This document shows positions 156-53,055 of a stretch of 64,000 nucleotides of DNA, in pieces. The number at the start of each line of letters is the position of its first letter. Positions within the stretch are counted from its first letter, which is position 1. Below the pieces are notes generated by a model, which searched no databases, was not told the DNA's origin, and saw only the letters and a list, made by a program, of their open reading frames with translations. The DNA is from Arthrobacter sp. APC 3897 (GTDB taxonomy: Bacteria > Actinomycetota > Actinomycetes > Actinomycetales > Micrococcaceae): NCBI RefSeq assembly GCF_030407495.1, contig NZ_JASDDG010000006.1, forward strand, positions 21,880 to 85,879, in the 5' to 3' direction. The translations under genes and the position numbers were made by a program.

Positions 156-1211
156 GCCTTCATGCCGGGCCAGAAGTACCTCCAGGAGCCCGCTTCGTGC
201 CAGGTTCAGGTGCATTTCGGTCTGGCGCAGGGCAGAGTTCAGGTAGAAACCCTCGAGCCGGTCCCGGCTGGGTGTCCAGCGCAGACGCTGCGCATAATCC
301 CAGACGGGCGCGTTTCCCATCTCCGCACCCAGTGCCGCAACGGTGCGGGTACGCCGCAGATGATGCGCGGCGATGGCATCCACCCGTGCCGCCAGGCCCC
401 GAAACCGGTACTCGTGCCCGGGCAGGACCTCATACTCCTCATAGCGGCGCATCAGCTGCAGTGAGGCCAGAAAGTCGGGGAGCGGCTCGGCGCCGGGCAG
501 GACGCCCAGGCCAACGCCGGAATAGATCTGCGGCAGAACATGGTCGCCGCCGTAGACCACGCGCCGTTCACGGTCCACGAAACACAGGTGTCCGCCGGTA
601 TGGCCGGGAGTGGAGAGGGCCGTCAGGCAGTGGCCGTCAAGCTCCAGAACGTCTCCGTCCTCAAGGAGAAGATCTGGTTCAATGTCCGCGAACAGCGGCG
701 CCCGGCCGAAGGAAGCTCGAAGCTCGGCACGTCGTCCGGCGGGTACGCCCCAACCGTCAAGAACGCGGTCATACGCCTCCAGGTCCCGGCGCCAGGGACC
801 CAGCTGATGGGTCAGGACAGCCCGCTCAGCTCGGGACAGCACCACCTTTGCCCCGGTGATGTCCCGAAGCGTCCCCGCGATTCCAAGATGGTCCGGATGG
901 TGATGAGTGGCGATGATCGTCGACAGCCCGTCCAGCGAAACTCCGATTGTCCGCAGGTTGCCGCGCAGGGCGTCAAGGTTCTCCGCCGAGTCCCAGCCCG
1001 GGTCCAGCAGATGGAAGGATGAGTCGCCGGAAAGCAGAACATAGCTGAGGGTGTATCTGACGCCGCCGTCGGGGATTGGCGACGCGATGGCCCACACATT
1101 CGGGGCCACCCGTTCCGGCGGCGGTAGTTCCCGGGCCCGCAGTGCTGCCAGCTGACCTGCGCTCGTGGGGTGGATCCGGGCAGCTTCCATCTTGCCCCGC
1201 GCGGCGTTCAC
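96..1211 (-). CDS. MBL-fold metallo-hydrolase
   Basis: A 371-residue metallo-beta-lactamase-fold hydrolase. The metal motif HxHxDH is at residues 103-108 (HHHPDH). Further ligands are His204 (TPGHTGGH), Asp223 (YGGDH) and His266 (LPGHE), so both zinc sites look intact. A C-terminal extension of about 100 residues is typical of the glyoxalase II-like/thioesterase branch with a helical tail. The ATG overlaps the TGA of the upstream gene (ATGA), so translation is probably coupled; an internal Met at residue 8 is an alternative start. It is the last gene of a minus-strand operon with an EthD-like protein and an IclR regulator, opposite an acyl-CoA degradation operon. A thioester or lactone substrate from that pathway is a reasonable inference, not proven. 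Confidence 0.85.
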   Translation of the reverse strand: MNAARGKMEAARIHPTSAGQLAALRARELPPPERVAPNVWAIASPIPDGGVRYTLSYVLLSGDSSFHLLDPGWDSAENLDALRGNLRTIGVSLDGLSTIIATHHHPDHLGIAGTLRDITGAKVVLSRAERAVLTHQLGPWRRDLEAYDRVLDGWGVPAGRRAELRASFGRAPLFADIEPDLLLEDGDVLELDGHCLTALSTPGHTGGHLCFVDRERRVVYGGDHVLPQIYSGVGLGVLPGAEPLPDFLASLQLMRRYEEYEVLPGHEYRFRGLAARVDAIAAHHLRRTRTVAALGAEMGNAPVWDYAQRLRWTPSRDRLEGFYLNSALRQTEMHLNLARSGLLEVLLARHEGLAGQTLPQNIGNPDGSLIG

Positions 1212-1978
1212 CAGTCAGTCCACGGAACAATGGAGCGCAGGGGTGAGGAGAACAGCACCTCGCCGGCACCGGCGGGGGCCGCGGAATCGGAACTGATCCG
1301 GCGTTCCGTTTCCTCAATCGCTGCTCCGGTTGGCTCCGGATCCCCGTCAAGATAGAGCATCCGGATGCGCAGCCCTCCTGGCGGCTCCTCCACCACGCCG
1401 CCGAACGGCAATGAGCTGTGCCGCTGCGGGTGGCTAAAGGAAAAGGTCCAGGCTCCAGCCACCCCGTCTACCTCCAGCAGATGCGGTATCAGCGTAGTGT
1501 CCTCCCACGCGAAGCTGTCATGTGTTTGCCGGCCGTGCGGCTCGGCGTAACGGGTCAGGGTGATGTGCAGACCTCGGTTGGGGCGGTAAGGCAGCACATC
1601 GGGGCCAACCAGCACCCGCGGCGCCGCGTAGCCCTTCACCGGACGGAAGAATGCCAGCAGCGGTCGCCGCACACCGGGGATGATGGGACCGCGTCCCCAC
1701 TGAAAGGAAGCTTCACCGAGGGCGTCCCACGCGGCCACGCTTTCCTGGACGGGCGGCCGGAACCAGTACATGGCCACGTAATCCGTGGCCGCCAAGCCGG
1801 AATCCTGCGCCGGGGCGGCCTGATCACGGTGAACCCGCGCCCACCTGTCGCCCCAGGCAACTCCGGGCAGCGCGAGGTTCTCCGGCCGGTGGTCCAGCTG
1901 ATGCCAGCGGTTGTAGGCAGCGTGGGATCCGGGATCCGTGAGTTCAACGAAGGAAAAAAATGCCAAGTCGGCAAGCAT
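1208..1978 (-). CDS. EthD/dimeric alpha-beta barrel-like protein, function unknown
   Basis: A 256-residue protein without signal peptide or membrane segment. It begins FFSFVELTDPGSHAAYNRWHQLDHRPEN, a strand-helix pattern with a conserved H-x-x-D-H that resembles ferredoxin-like dimeric alpha-beta barrel proteins (EthD/DUF4286-like). A second similar half (residues about 125-230, LHITLTRYAEP...) suggests an internal duplication. Such proteins often sit in catabolic operons and may act on or bind ring intermediates, but no reaction is assigned. It lies between the IclR regulator (35-base gap) and the metallo-hydrolase (4-base overlap). Confidence 0.7.
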   Translation of the reverse strand: MLADLAFFSFVELTDPGSHAAYNRWHQLDHRPENLALPGVAWGDRWARVHRDQAAPAQDSGLAATDYVAMYWFRPPVQESVAAWDALGEASFQWGRGPIIPGVRRPLLAFFRPVKGYAAPRVLVGPDVLPYRPNRGLHITLTRYAEPHGRQTHDSFAWEDTTLIPHLLEVDGVAGAWTFSFSHPQRHSSLPFGGVVEEPPGGLRIRMLYLDGDPEPTGAAIEETERRISSDSAAPAGAGEVLFSSPLRSIVPWTDW

Positions 1979-2939: not shown

Positions 2940-4643
2940 GTGCGAACGTACGCAGAAGTGGTGAGAAGCCGCGCGCAGGACGAGCATGAGGGCCTTCGCT
3001 TCGAGGGGCGGAGCTGGAGCTGGGCCCAGGTCATCGATGAGGCGTCCACCCGGGCCGCGATCCTCGGGACCATTGAGCCGGGCATCGGACGCAGTCAGGT
3101 CCATGTGGGGGTTCTGCTGCAGAACACCCCCGACTATGTTTTCTGGCTTCTGGCGGCAGCACTGAGCGGCGACGTGATTGTTGGCATCAACCCGACACGG
3201 CGCGGTGCCGAGCTCACGCATGACATGCAGCACGCGGACTGCGATCTCCTGATCAGCGAGCCGCTCTACTTGGCAGCCGATGACTGCCCCGAACTGCCGG
3301 TGCCTGCAGAGCGCATCTTCGACGTGGAGTCCGGTGATTACGCCCGGCTGCTCGAATCCCATGCCGGAGCTCCCCTGCCCGGAGAACTGCCGGATGCAAC
3401 CTCGCTCTACCTGCTGCTGTTCAGCTCCGGATCCACCGGTGCCCCCAAAGCCGTCATCTGCACCCAGGGCCGCCTGGGCACAGTAACCCCCAGCCTCACG
3501 GAGCGCATTTCACTGCACCGCGGGTCTGTCAGCTACCTGCACCTGCCGCTGTTCCACGGCCACGGCATCATGATGAACCTGGCCACCGCCGCCGAAGCCG
3601 GGGCAACAGTGGTCATGGTGCGCAAGTTCTCTGCCAGCCGTTTCGCCCGTGACATCCGCGAGCACAAAGTGACGTTCGTAAACTACGTTGGGCGCGTCCT
3701 GAGTTACATTCTCGCCCAGCCGGAAGATCCGGCCGACGCCGACAACTGCCTAGAAGCAGTGTTTGGCTCCGAGGCATCTCCGGCCGAAGCGGAGAGCTTC
3801 CGCAGGCGGTTCGGCTGCGAGGTCCGTGAAGGCTTTGGATCAAGCGAGGGCATCATCCGCATCGTTCCCGTACCGGGCACCCCTGCCGGCGCCCTGGGCC
3901 TGCCCGCCGCCGGCATGACAGTGGAGATCCGCTCGGCCGACGGCGCGGAGTGCCCCCGGGCAAGGTTCGACGAGACCGGACGTCTCCTCAACGCCGAGGA
4001 AGCCATCGGGGAGATTGTTGTGGTGGGGGCAGGCCCGCGCTTTGAGGGTTATTACAACAATCCCGAGGCAATGGCTGAACGCCTTCGGTTCGGCGGAGAG
4101 GACTTCTGGACCGGGGACCTCGGGTACCGCGATGAGGAGGGCTACTTCTACTTCGGCGGCCGAACCTCGGACTGGCTGCGGGTGGACGGCGAGAACTTCG
4201 GCACCGCTCCCGTTGAACGCATTATCTCGCGCCACCCGGCGGTCTCGGGGGTTCATGCCTATGCCGTGCCTGACCCGCTAACGGGCGATCAGCTCATGTG
4301 CACCCTGGTGCTCCATCCGGGTGCCGAATTCGATCCCGCTGATATGGCGGCCTTCCTCGATGCCCAGCCGGACCTCGGCACCAAATGGCGTCCCGCGTTT
4401 ATCCGGGTGGTCGACCAGGCACCGACCACTGCCAACGCCAAAATCGACAAGGCTCCGCTGCGCAGGGTGGCCTGGGAAGCCGGGAACGTCTGGTGGGCCC
4501 GAAGCCGCAGCAGCGCGTATCTCCGCATGGAGGATGCAGACCGCGAAGCCCTGCGCAATCAATTCATCGCTGCGGGGCGCATCAATTCCCTGCCGGCAGC
4601 ATCTGCGGCCCTTGTAGAAACTGCAGGAGCTGGTACCCGATGA
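2940..4643 (+). CDS. Acyl-CoA synthetase (AMP-forming, FadD-type)
   Basis: A 567-residue ANL-superfamily ligase that would adenylate a carboxylic acid and transfer it to CoA. The ATP-binding P-loop FSSGSTGAPK is at residues 161-170. The hinge and aryl/acyl motif YFYFGGRTSDWLRVDGENF is near 400-418, and the catalytic lysine segment TTANAKIDK is near 500. GTG is the start, with AGGAAAGG upstream. It is the first gene of the plus-strand operon and overlaps the next gene by ATGA. By analogy with the FadD enzymes that feed the igr pathway, it probably activates a branched side-chain acid before the dehydrogenation, hydration and retro-aldol steps encoded downstream. The exact substrate cannot be read from sequence. 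Confidence 0.9.
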   Translation: MRTYAEVVRSRAQDEHEGLRFEGRSWSWAQVIDEASTRAAILGTIEPGIGRSQVHVGVLLQNTPDYVFWLLAAALSGDVIVGINPTRRGAELTHDMQHADCDLLISEPLYLAADDCPELPVPAERIFDVESGDYARLLESHAGAPLPGELPDATSLYLLLFSSGSTGAPKAVICTQGRLGTVTPSLTERISLHRGSVSYLHLPLFHGHGIMMNLATAAEAGATVVMVRKFSASRFARDIREHKVTFVNYVGRVLSYILAQPEDPADADNCLEAVFGSEASPAEAESFRRRFGCEVREGFGSSEGIIRIVPVPGTPAGALGLPAAGMTVEIRSADGAECPRARFDETGRLLNAEEAIGEIVVVGAGPRFEGYYNNPEAMAERLRFGGEDFWTGDLGYRDEEGYFYFGGRTSDWLRVDGENFGTAPVERIISRHPAVSGVHAYAVPDPLTGDQLMCTLVLHPGAEFDPADMAAFLDAQPDLGTKWRPAFIRVVDQAPTTANAKIDKAPLRRVAWEAGNVWWARSRSSAYLRMEDADREALRNQFIAAGRINSLPAASAALVETAGAGTR

Positions 4644-5200
4644 CAACTGCCCAGCATGTACTGAGCGCCGAGGATCTTCAGCGGTTCGCGGGAACCGTGG
4701 CAGAGCCTCCCCGGGTGGCCCGTTACGGAGTCTCGGAGGCTATGATCCGCAACTGGGCCGAGGCCCTGGATGACCGGAACCCGGTCTATGTCGACGAGGC
4801 AGCGGCCCGGGAGACCGGCCGCACCGGCATCATTGCTCCCCCGGCCATGGTCTCCACCTGGGTGATGTCCGGCTACCGCCGCTGGCGCGACGTGCAGCGC
4901 GCCCGGGCTGAGGGCGTGGTTGAAGCGACCCCGTACGCCGAACTGCTGTCCCTGCTGGACCAGGCCGGTTACACCTCGGTGGTGGCCACGCAGATGGAGC
5001 AGGACTACGAGCGTGAACTGACCATGGGAACGCAGGTCAGCTGCCACATCACCATCGACTCCATCGCCGGCCCCAAGAAGACCGGGCTCGGCGAGGGGTT
5101 CTTCCTCGTCCTGGGCAAACGGTATGTGGACGCCGAACAGAACACCATCGCCACCGAAAAGTTCACGCTGCTGCGGTTTCGGCCCAAGGAGGACTCATGA
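4640..5200 (+). CDS. MaoC-like hotdog protein (ChsH2 N-terminal-domain-like)
   Basis: A 186-residue single-hotdog protein similar to the N-terminal, non-catalytic-type MaoC half of mycobacterial ChsH2 (FAS1-DH-like region). It includes AEALDDRNPVYVDEAAA and the IIAPPAMVSTW motif near residue 70. In characterised ChsH1-ChsH2 hydratases this half packs against ChsH1 to form the enoyl-CoA hydratase. ATG at 4640 overlaps the ligase stop (ATGA), and its own stop overlaps the next start. Unlike mycobacterial ChsH2, the DUF35 domain is not fused here but is the next gene. The canonical MaoC Asp/His dyad is not evident in this subunit, so the partner gene at 5643 likely supplies catalysis. Confidence 0.82.
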   Translation: MTTAQHVLSAEDLQRFAGTVAEPPRVARYGVSEAMIRNWAEALDDRNPVYVDEAAARETGRTGIIAPPAMVSTWVMSGYRRWRDVQRARAEGVVEATPYAELLSLLDQAGYTSVVATQMEQDYERELTMGTQVSCHITIDSIAGPKKTGLGEGFFLVLGKRYVDAEQNTIATEKFTLLRFRPKEDS

Positions 5201-5646
5201 CCATCCCCGGCACTGTTGTTCCGCACCTGGTGCGGACGCATGACAACGTCTTCTGGTTCGACGGCGCTGCGGAGGGCCGCCTGCTCGTGCAGCGGTGCAC
5301 TGACTGCGAAACGCTGCGCCATCCGCCCGCGCCCAGCTGTCCCCACTGCCGGTCCTTTGACTGGGACTCGGTTGAGTCCTCACGGCAGGGAACCCTCCAC
5401 AGCTGGACCGTGGTGCACCACCCCCGGGATCCGGCCTTCACCTACCCGCTCCTGGTGGGGCTCGTGGACCTGGATACCGGCACCCGGCTGGTGGCGGACT
5501 TTGAGCCCACCGACCACGATGCGCTCGCCGTCGGCTGTCCGGTGGAGGTCTACTTCGCCGAACACGCCCACGGCGAGATCCTCCCCCGCCTGAGGCTCCG
5601 GTCCGGACACGGGGAAACAGACGTTACTCAGCAAGGAGTGTCATGA
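5197..5646 (+). CDS. DUF35 zinc-ribbon/OB-fold protein (ChsH2 C-terminal-domain-like)
   Basis: A 149-residue Zn-ribbon plus OB-fold acyl-CoA-associated protein. A rubredoxin-like zinc ribbon, CTDCETLRHPPAPSCPHC, lies at about residues 34-51. The OB domain (GTLHSWTVVHHPRDPAFTYPLLVGLVDLDTGTR...) follows. DUF35 domains bind thiolase-fold partners; in the steroid side-chain system the ChsH2 DUF35 domain complexes with Ltp2 to form the retro-aldolase. ATGA overlaps on both sides indicate strict co-translation with the MaoC proteins. Here the domain is an independent polypeptide, a gene split relative to the mycobacterial fusion. Confidence 0.88.
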   Translation: MTIPGTVVPHLVRTHDNVFWFDGAAEGRLLVQRCTDCETLRHPPAPSCPHCRSFDWDSVESSRQGTLHSWTVVHHPRDPAFTYPLLVGLVDLDTGTRLVADFEPTDHDALAVGCPVEVYFAEHAHGEILPRLRLRSGHGETDVTQQGVS

Positions 5647-6050
5647 GCAGCAACGGATTCACGCCGGGAGAACCGCTTCCGGTGCTGGACGTCCCGATCG
5701 ACCGCGCCTTCATCGTTGCCGGGGCCATCGCTTCGCAGGACTTCGAAGATGTGCACCACGATCCGGATGCGGCCATCAACCGGGGAACACCGGACATCTT
5801 CATCAGCATCAACACCACCAACGGCGTTGTGGGACGCTACGTCACGGACTGGGCCGGACCGGCTGCGCGGCTGCGCTCGGTCTCCCTGCGTCTGGGAATG
5901 CCGCTGCACCCCGGAGACGTCCTGCACCTGACCGGAGAGACCGTTGCCGCGGATGACGCAGGGACCACAGTGAAAGTCACCGGGTCGCATGCCCGCGGCA
6001 TCCACGTCACGGCAACAGTGAACCTGACCCGGCAGGAGGCTGCGGCATGA
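5643..6050 (+). CDS. MaoC-family enoyl-CoA hydratase subunit (ChsH1-like)
   Basis: A 135-residue hotdog hydratase. The catalytic segment SQDFEDVHHDPDAA at about residues 28-41 carries the Asp and His of the MaoC hydratase motif. A following INTTNGVVGRYVTDWAGP segment is characteristic of ChsH1-like proteins. It is expected to pair with the product of the gene at 4640 and hydrate the enoyl-CoA made by the dehydrogenases at 7243 and 8441. The start overlaps the DUF35 stop and the stop overlaps the thiolase start. Confidence 0.87.
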   Translation: MSSNGFTPGEPLPVLDVPIDRAFIVAGAIASQDFEDVHHDPDAAINRGTPDIFISINTTNGVVGRYVTDWAGPAARLRSVSLRLGMPLHPGDVLHLTGETVAADDAGTTVKVTGSHARGIHVTATVNLTRQEAAA

Positions 6051-7225
6051 GCGGCTTCTCGGGAAAGGCAGCAATAGCCGGGATCGGCGCCACCGAATTC
6101 TCCAAGGATTCCGGACGCAGTGAATGGCGCCTCGCCTGCGAGGCAGTGCTGGCCGCGCTCGCCGATGCGCAGATCCCGGTTGAGGAAGTTGACGGCTTCT
6201 CCCTGTTCTCCATGGAAAACAATCCCGAGATTGCCGTGGCCCGGGCACTGGGGATCCCCGAGCTCAAGTTCTTCAGCCGCATCCCGCACGGCGGCGGAGG
6301 CGCCTGCGCGCCCGTCCAGCAGGCGGCCATGGCAGTAGCCAGCGGGGTTGCGGACGTCGTCGTCGTTTACCGCGCCTTCAACGAGCGTTCCGGACACCGT
6401 TTCGGTTCCGGTCCCCCGCAGTTTGCCTACGCCACCACCACGGACCAGGAATACCGCAACTGGATCAACCCGTACGGGCTGCTCACCCCTGCGGCGCAGG
6501 AGGCATTCCTCGCCCGGCGCTACATGCAGGAGTACGGCGCCACCAGCGCTGACTTCGGGCAGATCTCCGTGCTGTCCCGCAAACATGCGGCGAACAATCC
6601 GCTGGCCTGGTTCCACAACCGTCCCATCACCCTGGAGGACCACCAGGCTTCCCGGATGATCGCGGACCCGCTGCGGCTGCTGGACTGCTGCCAGGAGACC
6701 GACGGCGGGCAGGCGCTGGTGATCGTCAGTGCCGAACGCGCCCGCGACCTTCCGCATCCCCCGGCCATCATCACCGCCGCCGCGCAGGGCGTAGGTCCGC
6801 AGCAGATCTCCATGAGCAGCTATTACCGGGACAATATCGACGAAATGCCCGAAGTCGAACTGGTGGCACGGCAGCTGTGGCAGCAGGCCGGCCACGGCCA
6901 GGAAGGTATTGACGCCGCCATCCTGTATGACGCGTTCACCCCCATGGTCCTGCTGCAGCTCGAAGAATACGGATTCTGCAAGCGCGGCGAAGCCAAGGAC
7001 ATGATTGCCGACGGCCAGCTGGAACTCACCGGTTCGCTGCCCATCAACACCCACGGCGGCCAGCTCGGCGAGGGGTACCTGCACGGAGTGAACGGCATCG
7101 CCGAGGGCGTACGCCTGATCCGCGGCACCTCGGTCAACCAGCCGCCCAAGAATCTCGCGAATGTGCTGGTCACCGGCGGTTCACCCGTGCCGCACAGCGC
7201 CCTCATCCTTGCTACCGACCACTGA
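6047..7225 (+). CDS. Thiolase-fold lipid-transfer protein (Ltp2-like retro-aldolase)
   Basis: A 392-residue thiolase-superfamily protein of the SCP2-thiolase/lipid-transfer type. It opens KAAIAGIGATEFSKDSGRSEWRLACEAV and has GGGGACAPVQQAAMAVASGVADVVVVYRAFNERS near residues 83-113. It contains the C-terminal NTHGGQLGEGYLHGVNGIAEGVRLIRG block near 325-352. Ltp2-type proteins in association with a DUF35 partner cleave a beta-hydroxyacyl-CoA to a ketone plus propionyl-CoA instead of performing a CoA-dependent thiolysis. Its overlap with the ChsH1-like gene and proximity to the DUF35 gene support that role here. Confidence 0.87.
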   Translation: MSGFSGKAAIAGIGATEFSKDSGRSEWRLACEAVLAALADAQIPVEEVDGFSLFSMENNPEIAVARALGIPELKFFSRIPHGGGGACAPVQQAAMAVASGVADVVVVYRAFNERSGHRFGSGPPQFAYATTTDQEYRNWINPYGLLTPAAQEAFLARRYMQEYGATSADFGQISVLSRKHAANNPLAWFHNRPITLEDHQASRMIADPLRLLDCCQETDGGQALVIVSAERARDLPHPPAIITAAAQGVGPQQISMSSYYRDNIDEMPEVELVARQLWQQAGHGQEGIDAAILYDAFTPMVLLQLEEYGFCKRGEAKDMIADGQLELTGSLPINTHGGQLGEGYLHGVNGIAEGVRLIRGTSVNQPPKNLANVLVTGGSPVPHSALILATDH

Positions 7226-7242
7226 AGCCCCCAGGAGTGACA

Positions 7243-8460
7243 ATGAATCCAGATCTTTCACCTGAATCGAAGCAGCTGCGCGCGGAGCTGCGCGCCTACT
7301 TCGCCAGGATCATCAGCGCCGACGACGCCCGTGACCTCGTGGAACAGACCGAAGGCGGCCCGACCTTCTCACGGATCCTGAAGCAGATGGGCGCCGACGG
7401 CTGGCTCGGCCTGGGCTGGCCCACGGAATACGGCGGGCGGGGCGAGGACCCCGAAGCACAATTCGTGTTCTATGACGAAGTGATCCGGGCCAACGCCCCC
7501 CTGTCCCTGGTCAGCCTGAACACGGTGGCTCCCGCCCTGATGAAACACGGTACCCGGGAACAAAAGGAATTCTTCCTCCCGCCGATCCTGGCCGGTGAGC
7601 TGATGTTCGCCATCGGCTACTCGGAGCCCGGTGCCGGTACCGACCTCGCCTCGCTGCGCACCACGGCGCGGATCGAAGGCGATGAACTGGTCATCAACGG
7701 CAACAAGCTCTACACCAGTGCCGCTATCTTCGCTGACTGGATCTGGCTCGCTGTGCGCACCGACCCTGATGCACCGCGTCACAAGGGCATTTCGGTGGTC
7801 ATGGTGCCCACCACCGCCCCCGGATTCTCCGCCACCGAAATCCACACCGTGGGAGGCATCAGCACCGCCGCCACCTACTACGAAGATGTCCGGGTACCCC
7901 TGAGCAACGTCGTCGGCGAACTCAACGGCGGCTGGCGGATGATCACCAACCAGCTCAACCATGAGCGTGTTGCCCTGGCAGCACGGGGCGGGATCGCCAA
8001 CGAGCTGTTCAGTCAGGTCCTGGACTGGGCCCGCACCGAACCGTACGGCGAGGGACACGTCCTGGACCTGCCCTGGGTGCGCTCCACACTCGCCGAGGTC
8101 TACGCCTTGCTCTCCGCTGCCGAACTGGTGAACCTTCGCCTGGTGGCAGATGTCGCGGGCGGCACGCTGGCCGGCGGAGACGCAGCCGCAGCGAAGGTGA
8201 TCGGAACGGAAACGGTAGTGGAGGTGTACGGCAAGCTGCAGGACGTGCTGGGTGTGGCAGGCCTGCTGCGTCCGGGATCCCGCGGTGCAGCCATCAGCGG
8301 GCGGGTTGAGACACTGGCCCGCCGTGCGCAGAACAATACCTTCGGTGGCGGCAGCAACGAGGTCCTGCGGGATCTTGTTGCCGCCAAGTCACTGGGAATG
8401 ACCGTGGCGGTCCGCCGCCAAGAGAAGAAGGAAGAGGCACATGCAGTTCGAACTCGATGA
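7243..8460 (+). CDS. Acyl-CoA dehydrogenase, catalytic subunit (ChsE2/FadE29-like)
   Basis: A 405-residue FAD acyl-CoA dehydrogenase. The start is ATG 7243, with AGGAG at 7233-7237; the GTG six bases upstream lies in that site. It has the FAD-binding block AIGYSEPGAGTDLASLRTTA near residues 124-143. The likely catalytic glutamate is Glu241 in QLNHERVA, the position used by the FadE29 class. The C-terminal GGGSNEVLRDLVAAKSLG motif is also typical. In igr-type systems two different dehydrogenase polypeptides form an alpha2-beta2 heterotetramer. The next gene overlaps by 20 bases and encodes the probable partner. Confidence 0.9.
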   Translation: MNPDLSPESKQLRAELRAYFARIISADDARDLVEQTEGGPTFSRILKQMGADGWLGLGWPTEYGGRGEDPEAQFVFYDEVIRANAPLSLVSLNTVAPALMKHGTREQKEFFLPPILAGELMFAIGYSEPGAGTDLASLRTTARIEGDELVINGNKLYTSAAIFADWIWLAVRTDPDAPRHKGISVVMVPTTAPGFSATEIHTVGGISTAATYYEDVRVPLSNVVGELNGGWRMITNQLNHERVALAARGGIANELFSQVLDWARTEPYGEGHVLDLPWVRSTLAEVYALLSAAELVNLRLVADVAGGTLAGGDAAAAKVIGTETVVEVYGKLQDVLGVAGLLRPGSRGAAISGRVETLARRAQNNTFGGGSNEVLRDLVAAKSLGMTVAVRRQEKKEEAHAVRTR

Positions 8461-9562
8461 GGATCTGCGCGAAGCAGCCCAGCTGGCAGAGGAAGTCTTC
8501 ACACAGATGGCCGCCACCACGCGGGTGAGGGACGTCGAGCGCGAAGAAGGCGGGCACGACGAGGCACTGTGGAAAGCCCTCGCGGACACGGGAATCCTGG
8601 GGCTGGCCCTGCCCGAAGAACACGGCGGTTCCGGTCTGGGCGTGCTCGGGCTGGTAGCAGTGCTGGAGCAGCAGGGCCGGCGGGTTGCCCCGGTTCCCTT
8701 CGCTGCCGCCGTCGCCATGGCCGCACTCCCGATCTCCTGCTGGGGAACGGACGCGCAGCGGGACCGCTGGCTGCCCGGGTTCCTTGACGGATCACTCCTC
8801 ATTGCCGGAGCCATTGACGCGGCCGTTGACGGCGACAATGCCGTGCGCGGCGAACGCGACGGCAGCGGGTGGCGGATCTCCGGCACCCTGCTGGCGGTCC
8901 CGGGTGCCGGCAACGCGGCTGCCCTGCTCGTTCCGGTGAAGACCGACGACGGCGTGATCGCCGTCATCCTGCCGGTGGACCGGGAAGGGGTCAGCCGCGA
9001 GGCGGTGTCGCTGACAAGCCACGGCGCGGCGGCCGGCGTGGTGCTGGACGCGGTGCGCGTGGAAGATGACGAAGTGCTCACCGGCGGATCCATGCCGGTG
9101 CAGCAGGCACGCATGCTCGGACGCATCGCGCTGGCAGCAGTCCAGGCGGGAGTCTGTGAAGAAGCCATCGCCATCACCGCGGCCTACACGTCCGAGCGCA
9201 TCCAGTTCGACCGTCCGCTTTCGGCCAACCAGGCTGTCTCGGCCCGCGCCGCCGATGCACATCTTGATGCCGAGCGCATCAAGCTCACCACCCGCCGGGC
9301 CGCCTGGCTCGTTGACCAGGGAGGCGACGGCGCGGAATCCGCATCACTCGTTGCCTCCTGGTGGGCAGCACACGGCGGCCTTCGCGTTGTGCTGGCAACC
9401 CAGCATCTGCACGGCGGCATGGGCGCGGACATCGATTACCAAATCCACCGCTACTTCCTGTGGGGCCGGCAGAACGCATACTCGCTGGGCAGCGCTCCGG
9501 CTCTGATGTCCGAACTCGGATCAATGCTGGAAACCGTACCGATGATCGGAACCCCGGCGTAA
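8441..9562 (+). CDS. Acyl-CoA dehydrogenase, partner subunit (ChsE1/FadE28-like)
   Basis: A 373-residue acyl-CoA-dehydrogenase-fold protein, more divergent than its neighbour. It has GLALPEEHGGSGLGVLGLVAVLEQQGRRVAPVPFAA near residues 47-82 but a degenerate middle domain and no clear LNHER-type catalytic glutamate. It retains TSERIQFDRPLSANQAV near 247-263 and AWLVDQGGDG. These are features of the FadE28-type subunit that completes the FAD site of a heterotetramer. The gene overlaps the previous one by 20 bases and is last in the operon. A strong terminator lies 8 bases past its stop. Confidence 0.87.
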   Translation: MQFELDEDLREAAQLAEEVFTQMAATTRVRDVEREEGGHDEALWKALADTGILGLALPEEHGGSGLGVLGLVAVLEQQGRRVAPVPFAAAVAMAALPISCWGTDAQRDRWLPGFLDGSLLIAGAIDAAVDGDNAVRGERDGSGWRISGTLLAVPGAGNAAALLVPVKTDDGVIAVILPVDREGVSREAVSLTSHGAAAGVVLDAVRVEDDEVLTGGSMPVQQARMLGRIALAAVQAGVCEEAIAITAAYTSERIQFDRPLSANQAVSARAADAHLDAERIKLTTRRAAWLVDQGGDGAESASLVASWWAAHGGLRVVLATQHLHGGMGADIDYQIHRYFLWGRQNAYSLGSAPALMSELGSMLETVPMIGTPA

Positions 9563-9613: not shown

Positions 9614-11204
9614 AGGCGACCCGCAGGTCGATCTCGCCGGGCCGGGCGCCGCCGGCCCCGAATACCAGATGGCGGTTGGCGATCTTGTCGGTGAAGAACC
9701 TGTCGTGGCTGACCACCACCACGGCTCCCGGGAAGTGCAGCAGCGCCCGCTCCATCACCTGGGTGCTGGAGAGGTCCAGGTGGTTGGTGGGCTCATCGAG
9801 CAGCAGCACCGAGGCGCCGGAGAGCAGGCACTGGGCCATGGCCACCCGCGCCTTCTGCCCGCCGGAGAGGTTGCCGATCTTCTGCTTCAGGTCCGCCTCG
9901 GAGAACTGGAACATGGTCAGGAACCGGTTGACGGATTTCTTCGTGGCGGTCAGAGCGAGGCTGTCCGGCATGGCGTTCACCGAATGGGTGACGGTGTCAC
10001 CGTCGTCGAGCTCCGCCAGCACCTGGTTGTAGGAGACCATTTTCGCGCCGTTGGCCCAGACAACCTTGCCGGCGTCGGCTTTCTCTTCGCCCGTCAATAC
10101 ACGCAGCAGCGTCGTTTTCCCGCTGCCGTTGGAACCGAGGACCACCAGCCGGTCCCCGCGCCGGATTTCGAAACTCAGGTCCTGGAACAGCGTCCTGTCA
10201 CCGTAGGACTTGCCCACGGACTCCACCCGGAACAGGTTGTCCTTGACGTGCAGACCGCCGTAGATTTCCGTGATGATCTGGTCCACGGGGCGCGGAGCGC
10301 GGGCTTTCTTGATTTTCGCCAGCCTGCCGCCCAGGCCGTCGCTGCCGGCTTTCGCCGCCTCGCGCCGGTCGGAAATGCCCTCGGCTTCGAAAGCCAGCAA
10401 CTCGGACTCATGGACAAACTGGGTCTGCAGCGCCTTGAGCCGGAACTGTTTTTGGATAACGTACTCGCCGAAATTACCGGGATATTCGTGCAGGTGGTAG
10501 TTCTCCACCTCAATAATGCGGGTCACCACGGCGTCCAGGAACTTGCGGTCGTGGGAGACGACGACGGCGGCGCCGCGGAAATCGCGGAACCAGCCTTCCA
10601 GCCACTCCACGCCGGCAACATCAAGGTAGTTGGTGGGTTCATCCAGCAGCAGCACGTCCGGTGCCTGCAGCAGAATCTTGGCCAGGGCGGCACGGTTGCG
10701 CCAGCCGCCGGAGAGGGCATCGATGGGGCAGGTGCGGTGCGCCGCGCTGAACCCGAGGGTGGTCAGTGCCGCGTCGATCCGGCGCGGATAATCCCAGCCG
10801 TCCAGCCGGTCCATGGTTTCGAACAGTTCCGACTGCCGGCGGATCAGCTTATCCAGTGCCTTGGGTTCGGGATCCGCGGCAATCGCCTCGTCAATGGAGG
10901 CAAGCTCGGCTTCAGCGGCTTTGATCTCCACGAACAATGCGTCAAGCACCTCGGTGATGGTGGATTCACCGTTGAGCTCGGAGAACTGGGAGAAGTAGCC
11001 AATTTTCAGTCCCGGCTCCACGCTGACCGTGCCGGAGTCCGGCTGAACCTGCTCCAGAATCAGTTTCAGCAGAGTGGATTTACCCGAACCGTTTTTGCCG
11101 ATCAGCCCCACCCGGTCCTTCGGCTCCAGCCGGAAAAACGCTTCACGCAGGATCTGTGTCTTATCGAAGCCAACGTTGACGTCCTGCAGCCTGATCAGGC
11201 TCAT
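9612..11204 (-). CDS. ABC-F family ATPase
   Basis: A 530-residue soluble protein with two ABC nucleotide-binding domains and no membrane segments. Domain 1 has GKNGSGKST near residue 39, LSGGWRNRAALAKILLQ and DEPTNYLD. Domain 2 has GSNGSGKTT near residue 350, LSGGQKARVAMAQCLLSG and DEPTNHLD. A charged linker lies between them. ABC-F proteins act on ribosomes (translation factor or antibiotic ribosome protection). ATG at 11204 is chosen because AGAGGAA precedes it and the conserved sequence begins there; a longer upstream frame exists but is not conserved-looking. It is monocistronic. Confidence 0.9.
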   Translation of the reverse strand: MSLIRLQDVNVGFDKTQILREAFFRLEPKDRVGLIGKNGSGKSTLLKLILEQVQPDSGTVSVEPGLKIGYFSQFSELNGESTITEVLDALFVEIKAAEAELASIDEAIAADPEPKALDKLIRRQSELFETMDRLDGWDYPRRIDAALTTLGFSAAHRTCPIDALSGGWRNRAALAKILLQAPDVLLLDEPTNYLDVAGVEWLEGWFRDFRGAAVVVSHDRKFLDAVVTRIIEVENYHLHEYPGNFGEYVIQKQFRLKALQTQFVHESELLAFEAEGISDRREAAKAGSDGLGGRLAKIKKARAPRPVDQIITEIYGGLHVKDNLFRVESVGKSYGDRTLFQDLSFEIRRGDRLVVLGSNGSGKTTLLRVLTGEEKADAGKVVWANGAKMVSYNQVLAELDDGDTVTHSVNAMPDSLALTATKKSVNRFLTMFQFSEADLKQKIGNLSGGQKARVAMAQCLLSGASVLLLDEPTNHLDLSSTQVMERALLHFPGAVVVVSHDRFFTDKIANRHLVFGAGGARPGEIDLRVA

Positions 11205-11394
11205 TCGGGATTTCCTCTCGGGGTGGGAACTGGTGAACGGTGCCGGCGGACGGATGGGCCGCGCGGCGGGTATTGCACCCGTTGACCAGCCACTCATCCT
11301 ATCTGCTGCGGCCGTCCCTGTTCGGAGCGCGGCCGCAGCGCCATACTGTACATTCCATGGCAGATTCACCTTTACCGATGAAGAGAGGTGCTCG

Positions 11395-12216
11395 ATGTCC
11401 GACGCGACAGCCCTTGTGTCCGGCCTGGGAATGGGCGAATCGGCACGCTGGCACGGCCAGGAACTGTGGTTTGCCGACTGGCTGGCGGGCACCATTTCCG
11501 CTCTCGACGCGGCTGGGAACGTTCGGCGGGTTGCCGGCGTGCCGTCAATGCCGATCTGCTTTGACTGGCTGCCGGACGGGCGGATGGCGGTGGTCTCCGG
11601 CAGTGATGCAGCCGTCCTGCTGGAGGTGCCGCACGCCGGGCTGGTCCCCCTGGCGGATCTGCACGGAATCTCCGGGCACCCGTGGAATGAAATAGCGGTC
11701 CATCCCTCGGGCAACATCTATGTCAACGGCATCGGCTACGACTATTCCGGGCAGGCCGTTCCCAACGGACCCATTGCCCTCATCCGGCCGGACGGCTCCG
11801 CGGAACAGGTTGCCGGCGGCCTGGCCTTCCCCAACGGCATGCTGGTGAGCGGGGACGGCAGCACGCTGGTGGTGGCCGAATCCAACGGCGGGCGGCTGAC
11901 CGCTTTTCCTATCCGGGACGACGGAACCCTGGGAGCAGGCTCGCTGTGGGCTGATCTTGCCGGCGGCGCCCCGGACGGGATCTGCTGGGACGGCACCGGC
12001 GGGATCTGGTTTGCCGAGGTCCCCGGGGAACGCTGTGTCCGGGTGGCACAGGGCGGCTCGGTGCTTGAAACGGTCCGGCTTGACCAGGGCTGCTTCTCCT
12101 GCGCTGCCGGCGGCGAGGACGGCGGGCTGCTGTTCATGCTGACGGCGCAGTGGCCTGACGTCATGGATCCGGCTGCCGAACACACCGGCCGAGTTATGGG
12201 GCTCAGAGTGAAGTAG
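11395..12216 (+). CDS. SMP-30/gluconolactonase-family hydrolase
   Basis: A 273-residue six-bladed beta-propeller protein of the SMP-30/gluconolactonase/LRE family. The metal-ligand regions are recognisable: GMGESARWH near residue 12 (Glu), NGMLVSGDGSTLVVAES near 147 (Asn) and PDGICWDGTGGIWFAE near 193 (Asp). Members hydrolyse sugar or other lactones using a divalent metal. The ATG is preceded by AAGAGAGG (about 11380-11388). It is followed, after a 120-base gap, by a TetR regulator. The substrate is unknown. Confidence 0.85.
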   Translation: MSDATALVSGLGMGESARWHGQELWFADWLAGTISALDAAGNVRRVAGVPSMPICFDWLPDGRMAVVSGSDAAVLLEVPHAGLVPLADLHGISGHPWNEIAVHPSGNIYVNGIGYDYSGQAVPNGPIALIRPDGSAEQVAGGLAFPNGMLVSGDGSTLVVAESNGGRLTAFPIRDDGTLGAGSLWADLAGGAPDGICWDGTGGIWFAEVPGERCVRVAQGGSVLETVRLDQGCFSCAAGGEDGGLLFMLTAQWPDVMDPAAEHTGRVMGLRVK

Positions 12217-34699: not shown

Positions 34700-37156
34700 T
34701 CAGTACGCGTCCTCCTCAGGAGTCCGTCCCGCCGGAAAATGCCCGGTCATGAGCCGCAGCAGCTCCGGCACCACGGCGGGATGGAAATAGTGGCCCATGC
34801 CGGGCACCGTCACCAGCCGCGAACCGGAAATGGCCGCAGCGGTTGCCGCTCCCCCACTGGGATGCACAATGGGGTCCCGGTCACCGTGGATCACCAGTGT
34901 TGGCGCCTTGATCCCGGCAAGATCGGCCGTCCGGTCCGCTGAAGCGTTAATGGCACCGAGGTGCCGGGAACGTGCTGTTCCGTTGTCCGGATACACGCCC
35001 CGGTCCCAGGCCAGTCCGCCGGCCCGGGCTTCTTCCGCCGGGTCCGCCGGATGCACCCGGCCCGACAGATGGCGCATCATGCCCACGCGGTCCTTGATGA
35101 ATTCCTCCCGTGTCCGCGGCGGCCGGGCGGCAAACCGGCGTTTGGTTGACAGTGCCGCAGCGCCGGTTTTCCGTGCACCGGTGGTGGAGATGATCGAGGT
35201 GAGGGTCAGGACCCGGTCCGGATAATGAGCCGCAACGGATTGGGCAATCATGCCGCCCATGGACATTCCCGCCACATGCGCCCGGTCCACCTGAAGGTGG
35301 TCCAGCAGACCCACCACGTCTTCGGCCATATCTTCAATCCGGTACGCGCCGGGCACCGGTTGGGCCAGCGCCAGCTGCAGCAGGCTGGGCACGGGGTTAG
35401 TCATCCGGCTGGAACGCCCCGCGTCACGGTTATCCAGGCGAATCACCCGGTATCCGGCGGCTGCCAGCCCGTTCACAAACGCAGCGTTCCAGGACAGCAA
35501 ATCCATCCCCAGGCCTGCCACGAGGACCACCGGCTCACCGTCGTCGGGTCCGTCAAGGCGATAGCAGAGCCGGACTCCTGACCCGAGAGTTACAAAGCGG
35601 TCTTCCTCCTGCGTGCCGGGCAGGATCCCCTGCGGACCCGAGAACTGCAGATGCCCATCAACCAGTGCCCCCTTTTGCAGGTCCCGGCGGTCGGCCAAAA
35701 AGTTCATGGTCATGAGCCAGGGCGCCTGTGTTCCCTGCCGCGGCAGGTCAGCCATGCTGCGCTGGATATACCCGGCACCAAAATCCAGCAGCGGCCGCGT
35801 GGGCATGCCCGCCGGCGCCTCGGGAACGGCGGCGGTGTGGCCGAGGCGGTCCATGCGGGTCAGCAGCCGGGAGAACCACCGCGTCAGCAGCCCTACCTTC
35901 AGGGTCCATGACGCGTTGGTGTAGCCGATGGCAAACGCCATGTTCGGGATGCCGCTGAGCATGACGCCCCGGTACGCGACGGTCTCCGTAAGGTTTACCG
36001 GCACGCCGTCCAGCCTCAGCTCCATGCCGCCCAGAATCCGCAGGGACAAGCCGGTGGCGGTCACGACGACGTCGGCTTCCACTTCTTTCCCGGATGCCAG
36101 GCGCACGCCGTGTTCGGTAAACGCGGCCGTCTGGCCGGTGACCATGGTGGCGTTGCCGCTGCCCAGCGCCTTGAAGAAATCACCGTCCGGAACGGCGCAC
36201 AGCCGCTGGTCCCACGGCCGGTAGGGCGGATTCAGGTGCGTGTCCAGGTCAAAGTCCTCCGGCAGCACACGGGACTGGATGCCGCGGATGAGCTTCTGCG
36301 CCTGGGTGGGCCAGCGCTGGCAGAAGGCCCAGATGGCGCGCTGCCGGCGGGCACTGACTTCGGCCATGATCTTTCCGGTGCGTTCGGGTCCGACGACGCC
36401 GCGCAGCCTCCGCGCGATCGGATCCTCCGCGGGGATGGGAAGGATATAGGTGGGGGTGCGCTGGATCATCGTCACCCGGGCACCAAGTTCCACGAGCGCC
36501 GGTACGAGAGTCACCGCGGTGGCGCCGCTGCCGATGACGGCGACCCGTTGGCCGGACACCTCCAGATCTTCCGGCCAGTCCTGCGGATGCACAATCCGAC
36601 CGCTGAACCGCTCACGCCCGGGAATCTCGGGGGTGTATCCCTCGTCGTAGCGGTAGTAGCCGGCAGCGTTGAAGATCCAGCCGGCGGTCAGGTGCAGGGT
36701 TTCTCCGGTGCCCTCAGGCTCGGCCGGCGCTGAGTCCGAAACTGAGTCCGGGCCGGGTTCCGGAGTCCTGGTGCGCTCCACGGTGATGTTCCACCGTGCA
36801 TCCCGGCTGGACCAATCCGCTGAAATCACCTTGTGGTGGTAGCGGATCAGGGCGTCCACGCCGTACTCGGCGGCAGTCTCTTTCAGATAGGACAGGATGC
36901 TCGGCCCGTCCGCAATGGCCTTTTCCTCCAGCCACGGGCGGAAGTCGTAACCGAAGGTGTACAGGTCGGAGTCCGAGCGCACTCCCGGATACCGGAAGAG
37001 GTCCCAGGTTCCTCCTGAACGGCCGCGGGATTCAAGGAGTGCGATGGATCGGCCGGGATGATCGGTGAGCAGCCGGCATGCAGCGCCTATTCCACTCAGC
37101 CCGGCGCCGATGATCAGCACATCCAGGTGTTCCAACGTATTTCCGGATTCCATCAC
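34700..37156 (-). CDS. Baeyer-Villiger-type flavin monooxygenase fused to alpha/beta hydrolase
   Basis: An 818-residue two-domain enzyme. Residues about 10-510 form a class B flavin monooxygenase: FAD motif IIGAGLSGIG (15-24), GGTW (48-51), the Baeyer-Villiger fingerprint FSGRIVHPQDWP (184-195) and the NADPH motif GSGATA (209-214). Residues about 535-818 form an alpha/beta hydrolase with LDNRDAGRSS and nucleophile elbow GMSMGG near 632. The pair could oxidise a ketone to an ester and hydrolyse it in one polypeptide; this is inferred from the domains. GGGAG precedes the first ATG. Confidence 0.88.
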   Translation of the reverse strand: MMESGNTLEHLDVLIIGAGLSGIGAACRLLTDHPGRSIALLESRGRSGGTWDLFRYPGVRSDSDLYTFGYDFRPWLEEKAIADGPSILSYLKETAAEYGVDALIRYHHKVISADWSSRDARWNITVERTRTPEPGPDSVSDSAPAEPEGTGETLHLTAGWIFNAAGYYRYDEGYTPEIPGRERFSGRIVHPQDWPEDLEVSGQRVAVIGSGATAVTLVPALVELGARVTMIQRTPTYILPIPAEDPIARRLRGVVGPERTGKIMAEVSARRQRAIWAFCQRWPTQAQKLIRGIQSRVLPEDFDLDTHLNPPYRPWDQRLCAVPDGDFFKALGSGNATMVTGQTAAFTEHGVRLASGKEVEADVVVTATGLSLRILGGMELRLDGVPVNLTETVAYRGVMLSGIPNMAFAIGYTNASWTLKVGLLTRWFSRLLTRMDRLGHTAAVPEAPAGMPTRPLLDFGAGYIQRSMADLPRQGTQAPWLMTMNFLADRRDLQKGALVDGHLQFSGPQGILPGTQEEDRFVTLGSGVRLCYRLDGPDDGEPVVLVAGLGMDLLSWNAAFVNGLAAAGYRVIRLDNRDAGRSSRMTNPVPSLLQLALAQPVPGAYRIEDMAEDVVGLLDHLQVDRAHVAGMSMGGMIAQSVAAHYPDRVLTLTSIISTTGARKTGAAALSTKRRFAARPPRTREEFIKDRVGMMRHLSGRVHPADPAEEARAGGLAWDRGVYPDNGTARSRHLGAINASADRTADLAGIKAPTLVIHGDRDPIVHPSGGAATAAAISGSRLVTVPGMGHYFHPAVVPELLRLMTGHFPAGRTPEEDAY

Positions 37157-51924: not shown

Positions 51925-53010
51925 TTAGAGCTGCGAGCCGACCTTGTAATCGGTCTCGTCGCCGCGGGTGTAGGAGAAGCCGTCCGCGCCCACGGTCACT
52001 TCCATTTCCGAGGAATCGGTGCGGGCCACCAGCGGCTGCGGGTTGCCGTCCAGGTCCAGGACCAGGGAGGCCTCGGTGTACCAGGACGGAACCACGGGGT
52101 TGCCCCACCAGTCGCGGCGCTGGTTGTCGTGGACGTCCCAGGTGATGGTGGGGTTGTCCGGGTCGCCGGTGTAGTAGTCCTGCGTGTAGATCTCGATGCG
52201 GTGGTCATCCGGGTCCAGGATGTAGAGGTAGAACGCGTTGGAGACGCCGTGGCGGCCTGGTCCGCGCTCAATCCGGTCGGAGATGCGCAGGGCGCCCATC
52301 TTGTCGCAGATCTGGATGATGTTGTGCTTCTCGTGCGTGGCGAAGGCAACGTGGTGCATGCGCGGGCCGTCGCCGCCGGTGAGCGCGGTGTCATGGACGG
52401 TGTCCTTGCGGTGCATCCAGGCGGCGTAGGTGACGCCGTCGGAATCCTTGATGTCCTCGGAGACACGGAAGCCCAGGTCCTCCAGGTAGGCGCGGCCGCG
52501 GGGAACGTCGGGGGTGACCTGGTTGAAGTGGTCCAGGCGCACCAGCTCGCCGGCGGAGTACAGGTCATAGCGCTGGGTCAGGCGCTCCACATGGTCCACG
52601 TGGTAGAAGAATTCGTAGGGGAAGCCCAGCGGATCCTCCACGCGGACCGAGTCACCCACACCCTTGGTGAAGCCCTCGGCCCGGCGTTCGGTGCGGCAGC
52701 CCATTTCCTTGTAGTAGGCCTCTGCCACGTCCACGTCTTCGGGGGTGCGCACGCGGTAGGCGAAGGACGCGACGGCGGCGACGGGTCCCTTGCGCAGCAC
52801 CAGGTTGTGGTGGATGAACTCCTCGAGGGAACGCAGATAAATGGCGTTCTCATCTTCCTCGGTCACGTGCAGGCCCAGGACGTCCACGTAGAACTCGCGG
52901 GACTTGGCCAGGTCGGTGACCACGAGCTCCATGTAGGCGCAGCGGATAATGTCCGGGGGCTGGATGGACGGCGTGGGGATCGGGTTGGGGTTGATGGCTG
53001 AAACGCTCAT
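51925..53010 (-). CDS. hpaD: Homoprotocatechuate 2,3-dioxygenase (type I extradiol)
   Basis: A 361-residue vicinal-oxygen-chelate dioxygenase. Metal ligands are His161 (RLDHFNQ), His220 (MHHVAFATHEK) and Glu273 (HRIEIYTQDYY). The acid-base His206 (TVHDTA) and Tyr263 are also conserved. They correspond one-for-one, offset by 6, to His155, His214, Glu267, His200 and Tyr257 of Brevibacterium fuscum HPCD. Its close homologue MndD of Arthrobacter globiformis uses Mn(II), so the metal here cannot be told from the ligands. The enzyme opens 3,4-dihydroxyphenylacetate next to the diol. The start is ATG 53010 with AAAGGAG. Confidence 0.95.
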   Translation of the reverse strand: MSVSAINPNPIPTPSIQPPDIIRCAYMELVVTDLAKSREFYVDVLGLHVTEEDENAIYLRSLEEFIHHNLVLRKGPVAAVASFAYRVRTPEDVDVAEAYYKEMGCRTERRAEGFTKGVGDSVRVEDPLGFPYEFFYHVDHVERLTQRYDLYSAGELVRLDHFNQVTPDVPRGRAYLEDLGFRVSEDIKDSDGVTYAAWMHRKDTVHDTALTGGDGPRMHHVAFATHEKHNIIQICDKMGALRISDRIERGPGRHGVSNAFYLYILDPDDHRIEIYTQDYYTGDPDNPTITWDVHDNQRRDWWGNPVVPSWYTEASLVLDLDGNPQPLVARTDSSEMEVTVGADGFSYTRGDETDYKVGSQL

Positions 53011-53055
53011 GGTGTTGTTGCTCCTTTGCAAGAAATGTGGGGAAGAGTTCGGAAC

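Follow-up and report, generated by a model that had tools for sequence, protein, structure and literature searches.

A probable Cas-type side-chain cassette with ChsH2 encoded by two genes and a variant aldolase in Arthrobacter sp. APC 3897

The window analysed here is a 64,000-nucleotide stretch of the genome of Arthrobacter sp. APC 3897 (NZ_JASDDG010000006.1, positions 21,880 to 85,879; contig C56:21880-85879 of the host genome, G000). Seven open reading frames (ORFs) on the forward strand form a cassette at 2940-9562, at the place and on the strand given by a first-pass annotation made from the letters of the window. The first, read from a GTG start at 2940-4643 (+), encodes a coenzyme A (CoA) ligase like CasI, a steroid-22-oyl-CoA synthetase. 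It is followed by ChsH2-N, presumably the non-catalytic MaoC half of a hydratase (4640-5200, +), a stand-alone DUF35 gene encoding a zinc ribbon and an OB fold, which corresponds to a separated ChsH2-C (5197-5646, +), and a ChsH1-type gene for a presumably catalytic MaoC hydratase subunit (5643-6050, +). The last three encode an Ltp2/CasP-type retro-aldolase with a YDAF motif (6047-7225, +), a ChsE2/CasL-type acyl-CoA dehydrogenase subunit (7237-8460, +; GTG start at 7237, with an in-frame ATG also at 7243) and a ChsE1/CasN-type acyl-CoA dehydrogenase subunit (8441-9562, +).

Four junctions (ligase/ChsH2-N, ChsH2-N/DUF35, DUF35/ChsH1 and ChsH1/Ltp2) are 4-base ATGA overlaps; these include the overlap proposed earlier between the two ChsH2 halves, where 4640-5200 and 5197-5646 share 4 bases. 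The ChsE2- and ChsE1-type genes overlap by 20 bases. All seven genes had been described as overlapping, which held for five of the six junctions but not for that between the Ltp2 and ChsE2-type genes, where an 11-base gap was found. The cassette genes are under purifying selection: the ratio of nonsynonymous to synonymous substitution rates (dN/dS) was 0.006-0.243 over 19 gene-by-congener comparisons, with the ligase and E1 of congener G024 left out.

Pfam searches returned an AMP-binding ligase, a FAS1_DH region, zf-ChsH2 and OB_ChsH2_C (PF12172, PF01796), MaoC, a thiolase fold and two acyl-CoA dehydrogenases. The ligase was placed closest to CasI (NF052587), which ranked top of 98 NCBIfam families at 555 bits, under the cut-off of 900. 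A structure search covered the other six proteins, for all of which the nearest solved structures were steroid side-chain enzymes, with matches of 119-533 bits that lie far beyond chance; the earlier identification of the last six genes as ChsH2-N, ChsH2-C, ChsH1, Ltp2, ChsE2 and ChsE1 was borne out. Both MaoC proteins matched chains of the ChsH1-ChsH2 hydratase (4w78_A and 4wnb_A, 119 bits, for ChsH2-N; 4wnb_B, 122 bits, for ChsH1), the two entries naming the chains differently. The closest structure to the DUF35 protein was 6ok1_B, the DUF35 domain of ChsH2 (127 bits), and that to the aldolase was 6ok1_A, Ltp2 of Thermomonospora curvata (533 bits); the aldolase also passed NF005892 (636 bits, cut-off 469). 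For the dehydrogenases 6wy8 ranked first (6wy8_B, Tcur3483, 441 bits for the ChsE2-type subunit; 6wy8_A, Tcur3481, 257 bits for the ChsE1-type subunit), followed by 4x28 (4x28_A, 389 bits; 4x28_D, 176 bits).

An Asp/His dyad forms the catalytic pair of hydratases of this kind. In the alignment the ChsH1-type protein retains the motif QDFEDVHHD and ChsH2-N has NPVY at the matching region, as do its fused relatives, and the hydratase presumably consists of one catalytic and one non-catalytic MaoC subunit. The zinc-ribbon cysteines of the DUF35 protein are retained as C-x2-C-x10-C-x2-C. Four zinc cysteines are the form reported for the T. curvata DUF35 domain, while Shy has a C3H1 ribbon (PMC12329534).

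Loci for comparison included those from a scan of genome contigs in which the best 80 of at least 583 relatives (at least 592 stretches) were kept. They were assigned to a Cas-type or a cholesterol-type group from a 79-row tree (79 of 111 scored loci, 32 fused rows having been left out by hand) or else by gene layout. Within the stretches examined, some of which are cut short, 19 of the 23 Cas-type loci carried a ligase like that of the window (>35 bits, phmmer), as did 4 of the 10 window-clade loci with a name and none of the 30 cholesterol-type loci. With the same floor of 35 bits, median phmmer scores against Cas-type and cholesterol-type loci were 119 and 56 bits for DUF35, 436 and 331 for E2, 221 and 127 for E1, and 549 and 528 for Ltp2; the medians for ChsH2-N and ChsH1 (127 and 115 each) barely separate the groups. 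In a 58-row Ltp2 tree (34 fused rows and 24 of 30 split rows; L009, L015, L017, L049, L051 and L054 left out) the window clade and its fused sister from Dactylosporangium fulvum (100/99) join the Cas-type clade (95/90). The Ltp2, DUF35 and ChsH2-N trees all kept the window proteins inside the Chs/Ltp2 clades.

Judged by this tree and the gene scores, the cassette has its closest known relation in the bile-acid Cas module (CasI, CasL-CasP) rather than in the mycobacterial cholesterol igr operon. The first-pass annotation had likened the cassette to the latter; the homology of the subunits stands, but the closest kinship lies with Cas, and neither the fused ChsH2 nor the cholesterol-type phylogeny of the mycobacterial operon is found here. 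Where CasM is one MaoC-DUF35 polypeptide the window has two ORFs, and the cassette is best described as a Cas variant. Among the best 80 of at least 583 relatives the named members of the window clade are Amycolatopsis circi, A. dendrobii, Nocardioides alcanivorans, Nocardioides sp. zg-DK7169, Rhodococcus aetherivorans, R. globerulus, R. gordoniae, Rhodococcus sp. IEGM 1379, Rhodococcus sp. CH91 and Tomitella cavernea, with aldolases 85-87% identical to that of the window. The spread of the clade over these genera suggests horizontal transfer.

The division of ChsH2 into two genes, noted at the outset, is genuine and has been met with in no fewer than three distinct clades. Among 123 loci that encode an Ltp2-type protein, ChsH2-N and DUF35 are fused in 81 and split in 30; the remaining 12, with no usable pair of the two in the stretch examined, were counted as neither. 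The numbers are biased towards the kin of the window, and at least one fused locus was counted twice (L020 and L098 are apparently the same record). The 30 split loci comprise 14 in the window clade, which spans five genera (Rhodococcus, Amycolatopsis, Tomitella and Nocardioides besides the host genus), 8 in a second clade within the host family, 7 in a Nocardioides/Pimelobacter clade that sits inside the cholesterol-type part of the tree, and 1 on a plasmid of Rhodococcus rhodochrous. A survey of the same cassette across Micrococcaceae, which had been proposed as a check, gave a patchy picture: 12 of 345 family genomes had an Ltp2 match at E<=1e-110, a threshold that, like the E<=1e-90 used within the genus, misses remoter copies. 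All 12 loci from the 345 genomes are split, and the split is also found outside the family.

On the 79-row tree parsimony called for 4 changes, of which starred branches force 3. On the 58-row Ltp2 tree, which lacks the plasmid row, it called for 3 (bootstrap 5-95% range 3-3), and each of the three split clades there has support of 100/99 or better. The DUF35 tree (58 rows, the plasmid row included; 4 changes) and the ChsH2-N tree (56 rows; 3 changes) returned the same split clades as Ltp2. A single origin of the split was not supported, since three well-supported clades require 3 changes. Recruitment of DUF35 from elsewhere, as opposed to gene fission, was likewise not supported because the DUF35, ChsH2-N and Ltp2 trees agree on the split clades. 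Fission on the stem of the window clade would be the simplest reading of these unrooted trees, both its sister and the surrounding Cas-type rows being fused. The cut falls in the interdomain linker, which is 13-28 residues long in the ten fused relatives printed, and leaves both domains whole.

An assembly or sequencing artefact, or the decay of ChsH2, could in principle produce the same picture, and one congener (G023, completeness 94) does have frame breaks in its Ltp2 gene and its ligase and ChsH2-N genes joined in one ORF (L011, L142), probably through assembly errors. Against this stand the intact domains, dN/dS values of 0.056-0.161 for the two ChsH2 halves, and the presence of the split in 14/14 window-clade loci of five genera and in two further clades, which together leave the artefact explanation with practically no weight. 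No discussion of a split ChsH2 was found in the literature searched, which was mostly open-access. The reverse arrangement was observed for the dehydrogenase, the ChsE1 and ChsE2 domains lying in one ORF of 722-817 aa in nine cholesterol-type loci (L064, L066, L126, L101, L104, L108, L109, L124 and L128).

The aldolase differs from its relatives in the active site. Residue numbers are shared with T. curvata Ltp2 up to residue 367 in the alignment to 6ok1_A. Tyr294 and Tyr344, reported to act in that enzyme as base and acid respectively (PMC12329534), are present in 123/123 loci, the window included. Position 296 is Ala, giving YDAF, in 14/14 window-clade rows; in the 109 others it is His in 106, Ala in 2 (L027 and L031) and Pro in 1 (L048). 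An oxyanion-hole role has been reported for His296, with a 14-fold loss when it is replaced (PMC12329534). Position 383 is His in 14/14 window-clade rows and Thr in 109/109 others, so that among the 123 loci examined the paired change is confined to the window clade (Ala296 with His383 in 14/14, against 0/109). Glu152, Phe154 and Ser379 are likewise specific to the clade (14/14 against 0/109), and an inserted Lys368 occurs in 14/14 window-clade rows and 1/109 others. No mention of the YDAF motif was found in the literature searched on Ltp2 and aldolase motifs. A tentative reading, which we hold less likely than its opposite, is that the window clade represents a distinct, horizontally spread aldolase subtype, common to Rhodococcus, Nocardioides, Amycolatopsis, Tomitella and the host genus, in which His296 was lost, His383 gained in the C-terminal loop and DUF35 released; it may have a rebuilt active site, a different steroid acid as substrate and an untethered, freely assembling hydratase-aldolase.

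In three window-clade loci, of R. globerulus, R. gordoniae and T. cavernea, the aldolase gene is directly followed by a DegT/DnrJ-type aminotransferase gene (L055 11209-12417, L056 11210-12427 and L058 11258-12469; L058 assigned by Pfam, the other two by reading of the translation). No mention of DegT was found in the literature searched.

Steroid ring genes were located outside the window, in one group ~8-25 kb upstream on C56 and in another on contig C23. Positions 1-20000 of C56 encode two IpdAB-like CoA-transferase subunits with a further subunit of this kind (PF01144), a FabK-type protein resembling IpdC, a crotonase resembling EchA20 (NF005925), a FadA6-like thiolase (NF005865) and an IpdF-like short-chain dehydrogenase/reductase (SDR; NF005880), the last three all over cut-off, together with dehydrogenases, a FadD3-family ligase (607 bits, cut-off 657) and a TetR regulator; the ipd and fad names are in part our presumption. 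They follow resemblance to the methylhexahydroindanedione propionate (HIP) gene set of PMC5380842. On C23:160000-179999 lie genes whose products resemble KstD, KshA, HsaA, HsaB, HsaC and HsaD, along with those for a reductase like KshB and for a meta-cleavage set (E/G/F). KshA matched PF19298 at 276 bits, over the Pfam cut-off, and the NCBIfam matches of this stretch stayed under their own cut-offs; the KshB-like reductase (best model PaaE, 250 bits against 421) and the E/G/F set were named by reading and place. The host genome thus holds a 9,10-seco degradation set (KstD, KshAB, HsaABCD-like). Within the genus the cassette was found in 4 of 29 genomes (E<=1e-90) and a strong KshA match in 5 of 29, namely all four of these and G014; KshA is present in 4/4 cassette genomes and 1/25 others (Fisher, 2.1e-4). 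Weak KshA matches (E ~5e-4 to 8e-4) in G006 and G011, and a second in G000, were not counted. Of 8 genomes searched, five (G000, G024, G019, G023 and G149) gave HsaC-like matches of >330 bits; G001, G003 and G200 gave none of that strength.

The first-pass annotation had noted no cytochrome P450, ring-cleavage or mce gene nearby. For P450 this holds over whole genomes, the window included, with no match at E<=1e-10 in G000 or G019 (G024 has two, G023 two and G001 five); for MlaD/Mce it holds at E<=0.001 in five genomes, G000 among them. As to ring cleavage, an extradiol-dioxygenase-like ORF (51925-53031; TIGR03213, 64 bits) does lie in the window, beside an aldehyde dehydrogenase gene and 42 kb from the cassette. 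Neither the side-chain P450 nor the Mce uptake system expected for cholesterol degradation was detected in G000.

The cassette is probably a Cas-type module that removes the C3 side chain (propanoyl, 22-oate) from a steroid. The following scheme, from its reactions and substrate to coupled translation and assembly of the subunits without a covalent bond, is inferred, with the order of reactions taken from the Cas/Chs model (PMC12502768, PMC8399759). The ligase would make the 22-oyl-CoA, the ChsE1-ChsE2-type dehydrogenase would introduce a C17-C20 double bond and the MaoC pair of ChsH1 and ChsH2-N would hydrate it. Cleavage by the Ltp2-type aldolase, acting with the stand-alone DUF35 protein, would then yield propionyl-CoA and a 17-ketosteroid, the latter to be degraded further by the KstD/Ksh/Hsa-like and HIP-like modules that the genome also encodes. 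Hydration is reported to be unfavourable and to be pulled by the aldolase (PMC11321319). Because ChsH2 is encoded by two genes, hydratase and aldolase would not be covalently tethered, and the ATGA overlaps probably hold the subunits in step through translational coupling.

Such an arrangement is mechanistically plausible, with DUF35 as an aldolase subunit and the MaoC pair as a free hydratase. In Comamonas the ChsH2 halves expressed separately kept both activities, although efficient removal seemed to need proper complexes, and the hydratase works without DUF35 while the aldolase alone needs it (PMC12502768). Since only the aldolase there needs DUF35, the protein is most simply read as an aldolase subunit. 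It had been suggested that a freed DUF35 might serve hydratase and aldolase alternately. Release from the hydratase tether would permit this, but no evidence for it was found; the Comamonas requirements (PMC12502768) point the other way, and in Shy/Sal it is the DUF35 domain, not MaoC, that co-purifies with the aldolase (PMC11321319), so that shuttling is regarded as very improbable.

As to the substrate, a ready-made steroid acid would be likelier than cholesterol, because no P450 or Mce match is present in the genome, the ligase is nearest to CasI and ring-degradation genes are at hand; the proposal of a pre-formed side-chain carboxylate is upheld to this extent. An attractive idea is that the host may import a C22 acid that other degraders of bile acids supply. 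In R. jostii RHA1 cholate intermediates are transiently excreted and then taken up again (PMC8399759). A compatible sub-case is that the host itself degrades a whole C24 bile acid; C5-chain-type genes occur in window-clade loci of Amycolatopsis and Tomitella, and next to the C/D-ring-type genes of G024 lie genes for an SDR and a two-domain MaoC hydratase. In none of G000, G024, G019 and G023 did a CasG or CasB match exceed the cut-off, and this sub-case is held possible but less likely than not.

Several observations weigh against a steroid C3-chain function. The match to CasI (555/900) and those to HsaA, HsaB, HsaC and HsaD (371/450, 189/230, 324/450 and 264/400) fall under the NCBIfam cut-offs, so that none of these proteins is a curated equivalog. 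CasG and CasB orthologues over cut-off were not found in G000 (best 300/750 and 380/515), and the cassette-less G001 scores about as high (312 and 360); neither result supports a route to the 22-oate. The KshA co-occurrence was scored over species of a single genus, not independent of one another, and G014 has KshA without the cassette. G200, of another genus, has a second-type cassette with neither a KshA hit nor a strong HsaC-like hit and speaks against a strict linkage of cassette and ring genes in the family. The oxyanion-hole His of the Ltp2 family is missing from the window aldolase, which could mean another substrate. No KstR- or KstR2-like site was found between the cassette and its divergent neighbour (2752-2939) with the four simple patterns tried, and no regulator common to the cassette and the ring modules was shown.

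The cassette might then act on a non-steroid branched acid, such as an isoprenoid or other ring-bearing propanoate, the steroid genes being unrelated company. The YDAF and other clade-specific aldolase residues would fit such a role, as would the failure to find a regulatory site in common with the ring genes, the second-type cassette of G200 without KshA, and the related split set on the R. rhodochrous plasmid, which lies among CoA-transferase and hydroxyphenylpropionate hydroxylase-like genes. The first-pass annotation had likewise thought the substrate possibly not a steroid, a view taken from local context alone that was set aside once ring genes were found: C/D-ring-type genes lie on the contig of the cassette, kstD-, ksh- and hsa-like genes lie on C23, and KshA accompanies the cassette in the proportions given above. 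Window-clade loci elsewhere moreover carry a CasG-like ligase (746 bits against 750, L051) and a steroid 3-ketoacyl-CoA thiolase (567 bits, over the cut-off of 515, L058). A non-steroid substrate is accordingly judged unlikely, and removal of a steroid C3 chain is retained as the probable function.

Among characterised systems, the Cas module of R. jostii RHA1 (CasI, CasL, CasM, CasN, CasO and CasP; cholate C3 chain) has the same enzyme types, the ligase included; RHA1 itself was absent from the loci compared, in which other Rhodococcus were present. It differs in that the counterpart of CasM is two genes here, in an aldolase with YDHF rather than YDAF, and in gene order, which is ligase-H2N-DUF35-H1-aldolase-E2-E1 in the window and E2-H2-E1-H1-aldolase in RHA1 (names after PMC8399759). 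The igr operon of Mycobacterium tuberculosis (ChsE1, ChsE2, ChsH1, ChsH2 and Ltp2; cholesterol) has the same reaction sequence and homologous subunits but a fused ChsH2, and no window-like ligase was found in the stretch examined of the 30 cholesterol-type loci. The cholesterol-type DUF35 of L020, L025 and L072 lacks the zinc cysteines, whereas the Cas-type and split forms printed keep them. T. curvata Ltp2-ChsH2(DUF35), 6OK1, the closest solved structure, has Tyr294, Tyr344 and the C4 zinc ribbon in common with the window, where His296 is replaced by Ala, Thr by His at 383, and DUF35 is encoded alone.

The igr genes of Nocardioides (Pimelobacter) simplex (KR76_12325-12345) are also split, with a 4-base ChsH2-N/DUF35 overlap in ATCC 6946 (L104); this is a cholesterol-type set with a separate split, and its aldolase keeps YDHF. 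For strain VKM Ac-2033D, KR76_12330 and KR76_12335 are tabled as two genes between chsE2 and chsH1, with no remark on the split in the accessible text (PMC7807495). In Mycolicibacterium neoaurum a stand-alone DUF35 protein, ChsH4, is encoded in an operon with the steroid aldolase Atf1, both reported to be key genes; these belong to a C5-chain (HBC) sub-pathway, and the accessible text describes no split ChsH2 (PMC10398937). The host genome has a second stand-alone DUF35 gene (L004 9944-10375) beside a thiolase-like gene (10387-11592) on contig C16, and a like pair occurs in G149 (L163 303-740 and 747-1952); the resemblance to the Atf1-ChsH4 layout was judged by eye only. Sal-Shy of Comamonas testosteroni (9MYR) is likewise an aldolase-DUF35 pair, of weaker homology (137 and 38 bits). 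It has a C3H1 zinc ribbon and YDCY (PMC12329534), features of the Sal/Shy C5 aldolase that are absent from the cassette with its C4 ribbon and YDAF.

An IclR-type regulator gene (2014-2751, -; PF01614, PF09339) is divergent from the cassette, with a divergent promoter region at 2752-2939. Relatives of the regulator are present in 4 of 10 named window-clade loci and also at the hsa-like cluster (133 bits), and it likely controls the cassette. The KstR2 motif AnCAAGnnCTTGnT (PMC3068626) has no fit within the window; by plain pattern match, without a shuffled control, it fits upstream of the window at C56:6947 and C56:20673 and in stretches of G024 and G019. At 1208-1978 (-) lies a gene for a 256-aa protein, a conserved neighbour of cassette or steroid genes with no Pfam or NCBIfam match at E<=0.001. 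It has relatives in five further genomes: those of three congeners are neighbours of the cassette, that of Nocardioides sp. zg-DK7169 is close to both the cassette and IpdAB-like genes, and that of G149 is ~5.5 kb away from KshA. The protein possibly belongs to a steroid pathway, its membership of the system being uncertain. Elsewhere in the window, an 818-aa ORF at 34700-37156 combines a flavin-monooxygenase-like N-terminal half with an alpha/beta-hydrolase C-terminal half, a possible Baeyer-Villiger monooxygenase-esterase fusion.

Arthrobacter is already listed among predicted steroid-degrading genera (PMC4810484), so that a steroid degrader in this part of the tree is no surprise in itself. 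The tight coupling that ChsH2-DUF35 provides between hydratase and aldolase has been interpreted as a means of overcoming unfavourable hydration (PMC11321319, PMC8399759). With at least three natural lineages that lack the covalent link, the importance of that link, of channelling or of simple co-expression becomes testable. The YDAF/His383 subtype is a naturally occurring variation on the active site of a class of enzymes that has drawn interest for steroid synthesis (PMC12329534). The cassette is a known module in variant form, of which the recurring natural lack of a hydratase-aldolase link and the YDAF/His383 subtype are worth a specialist's test.

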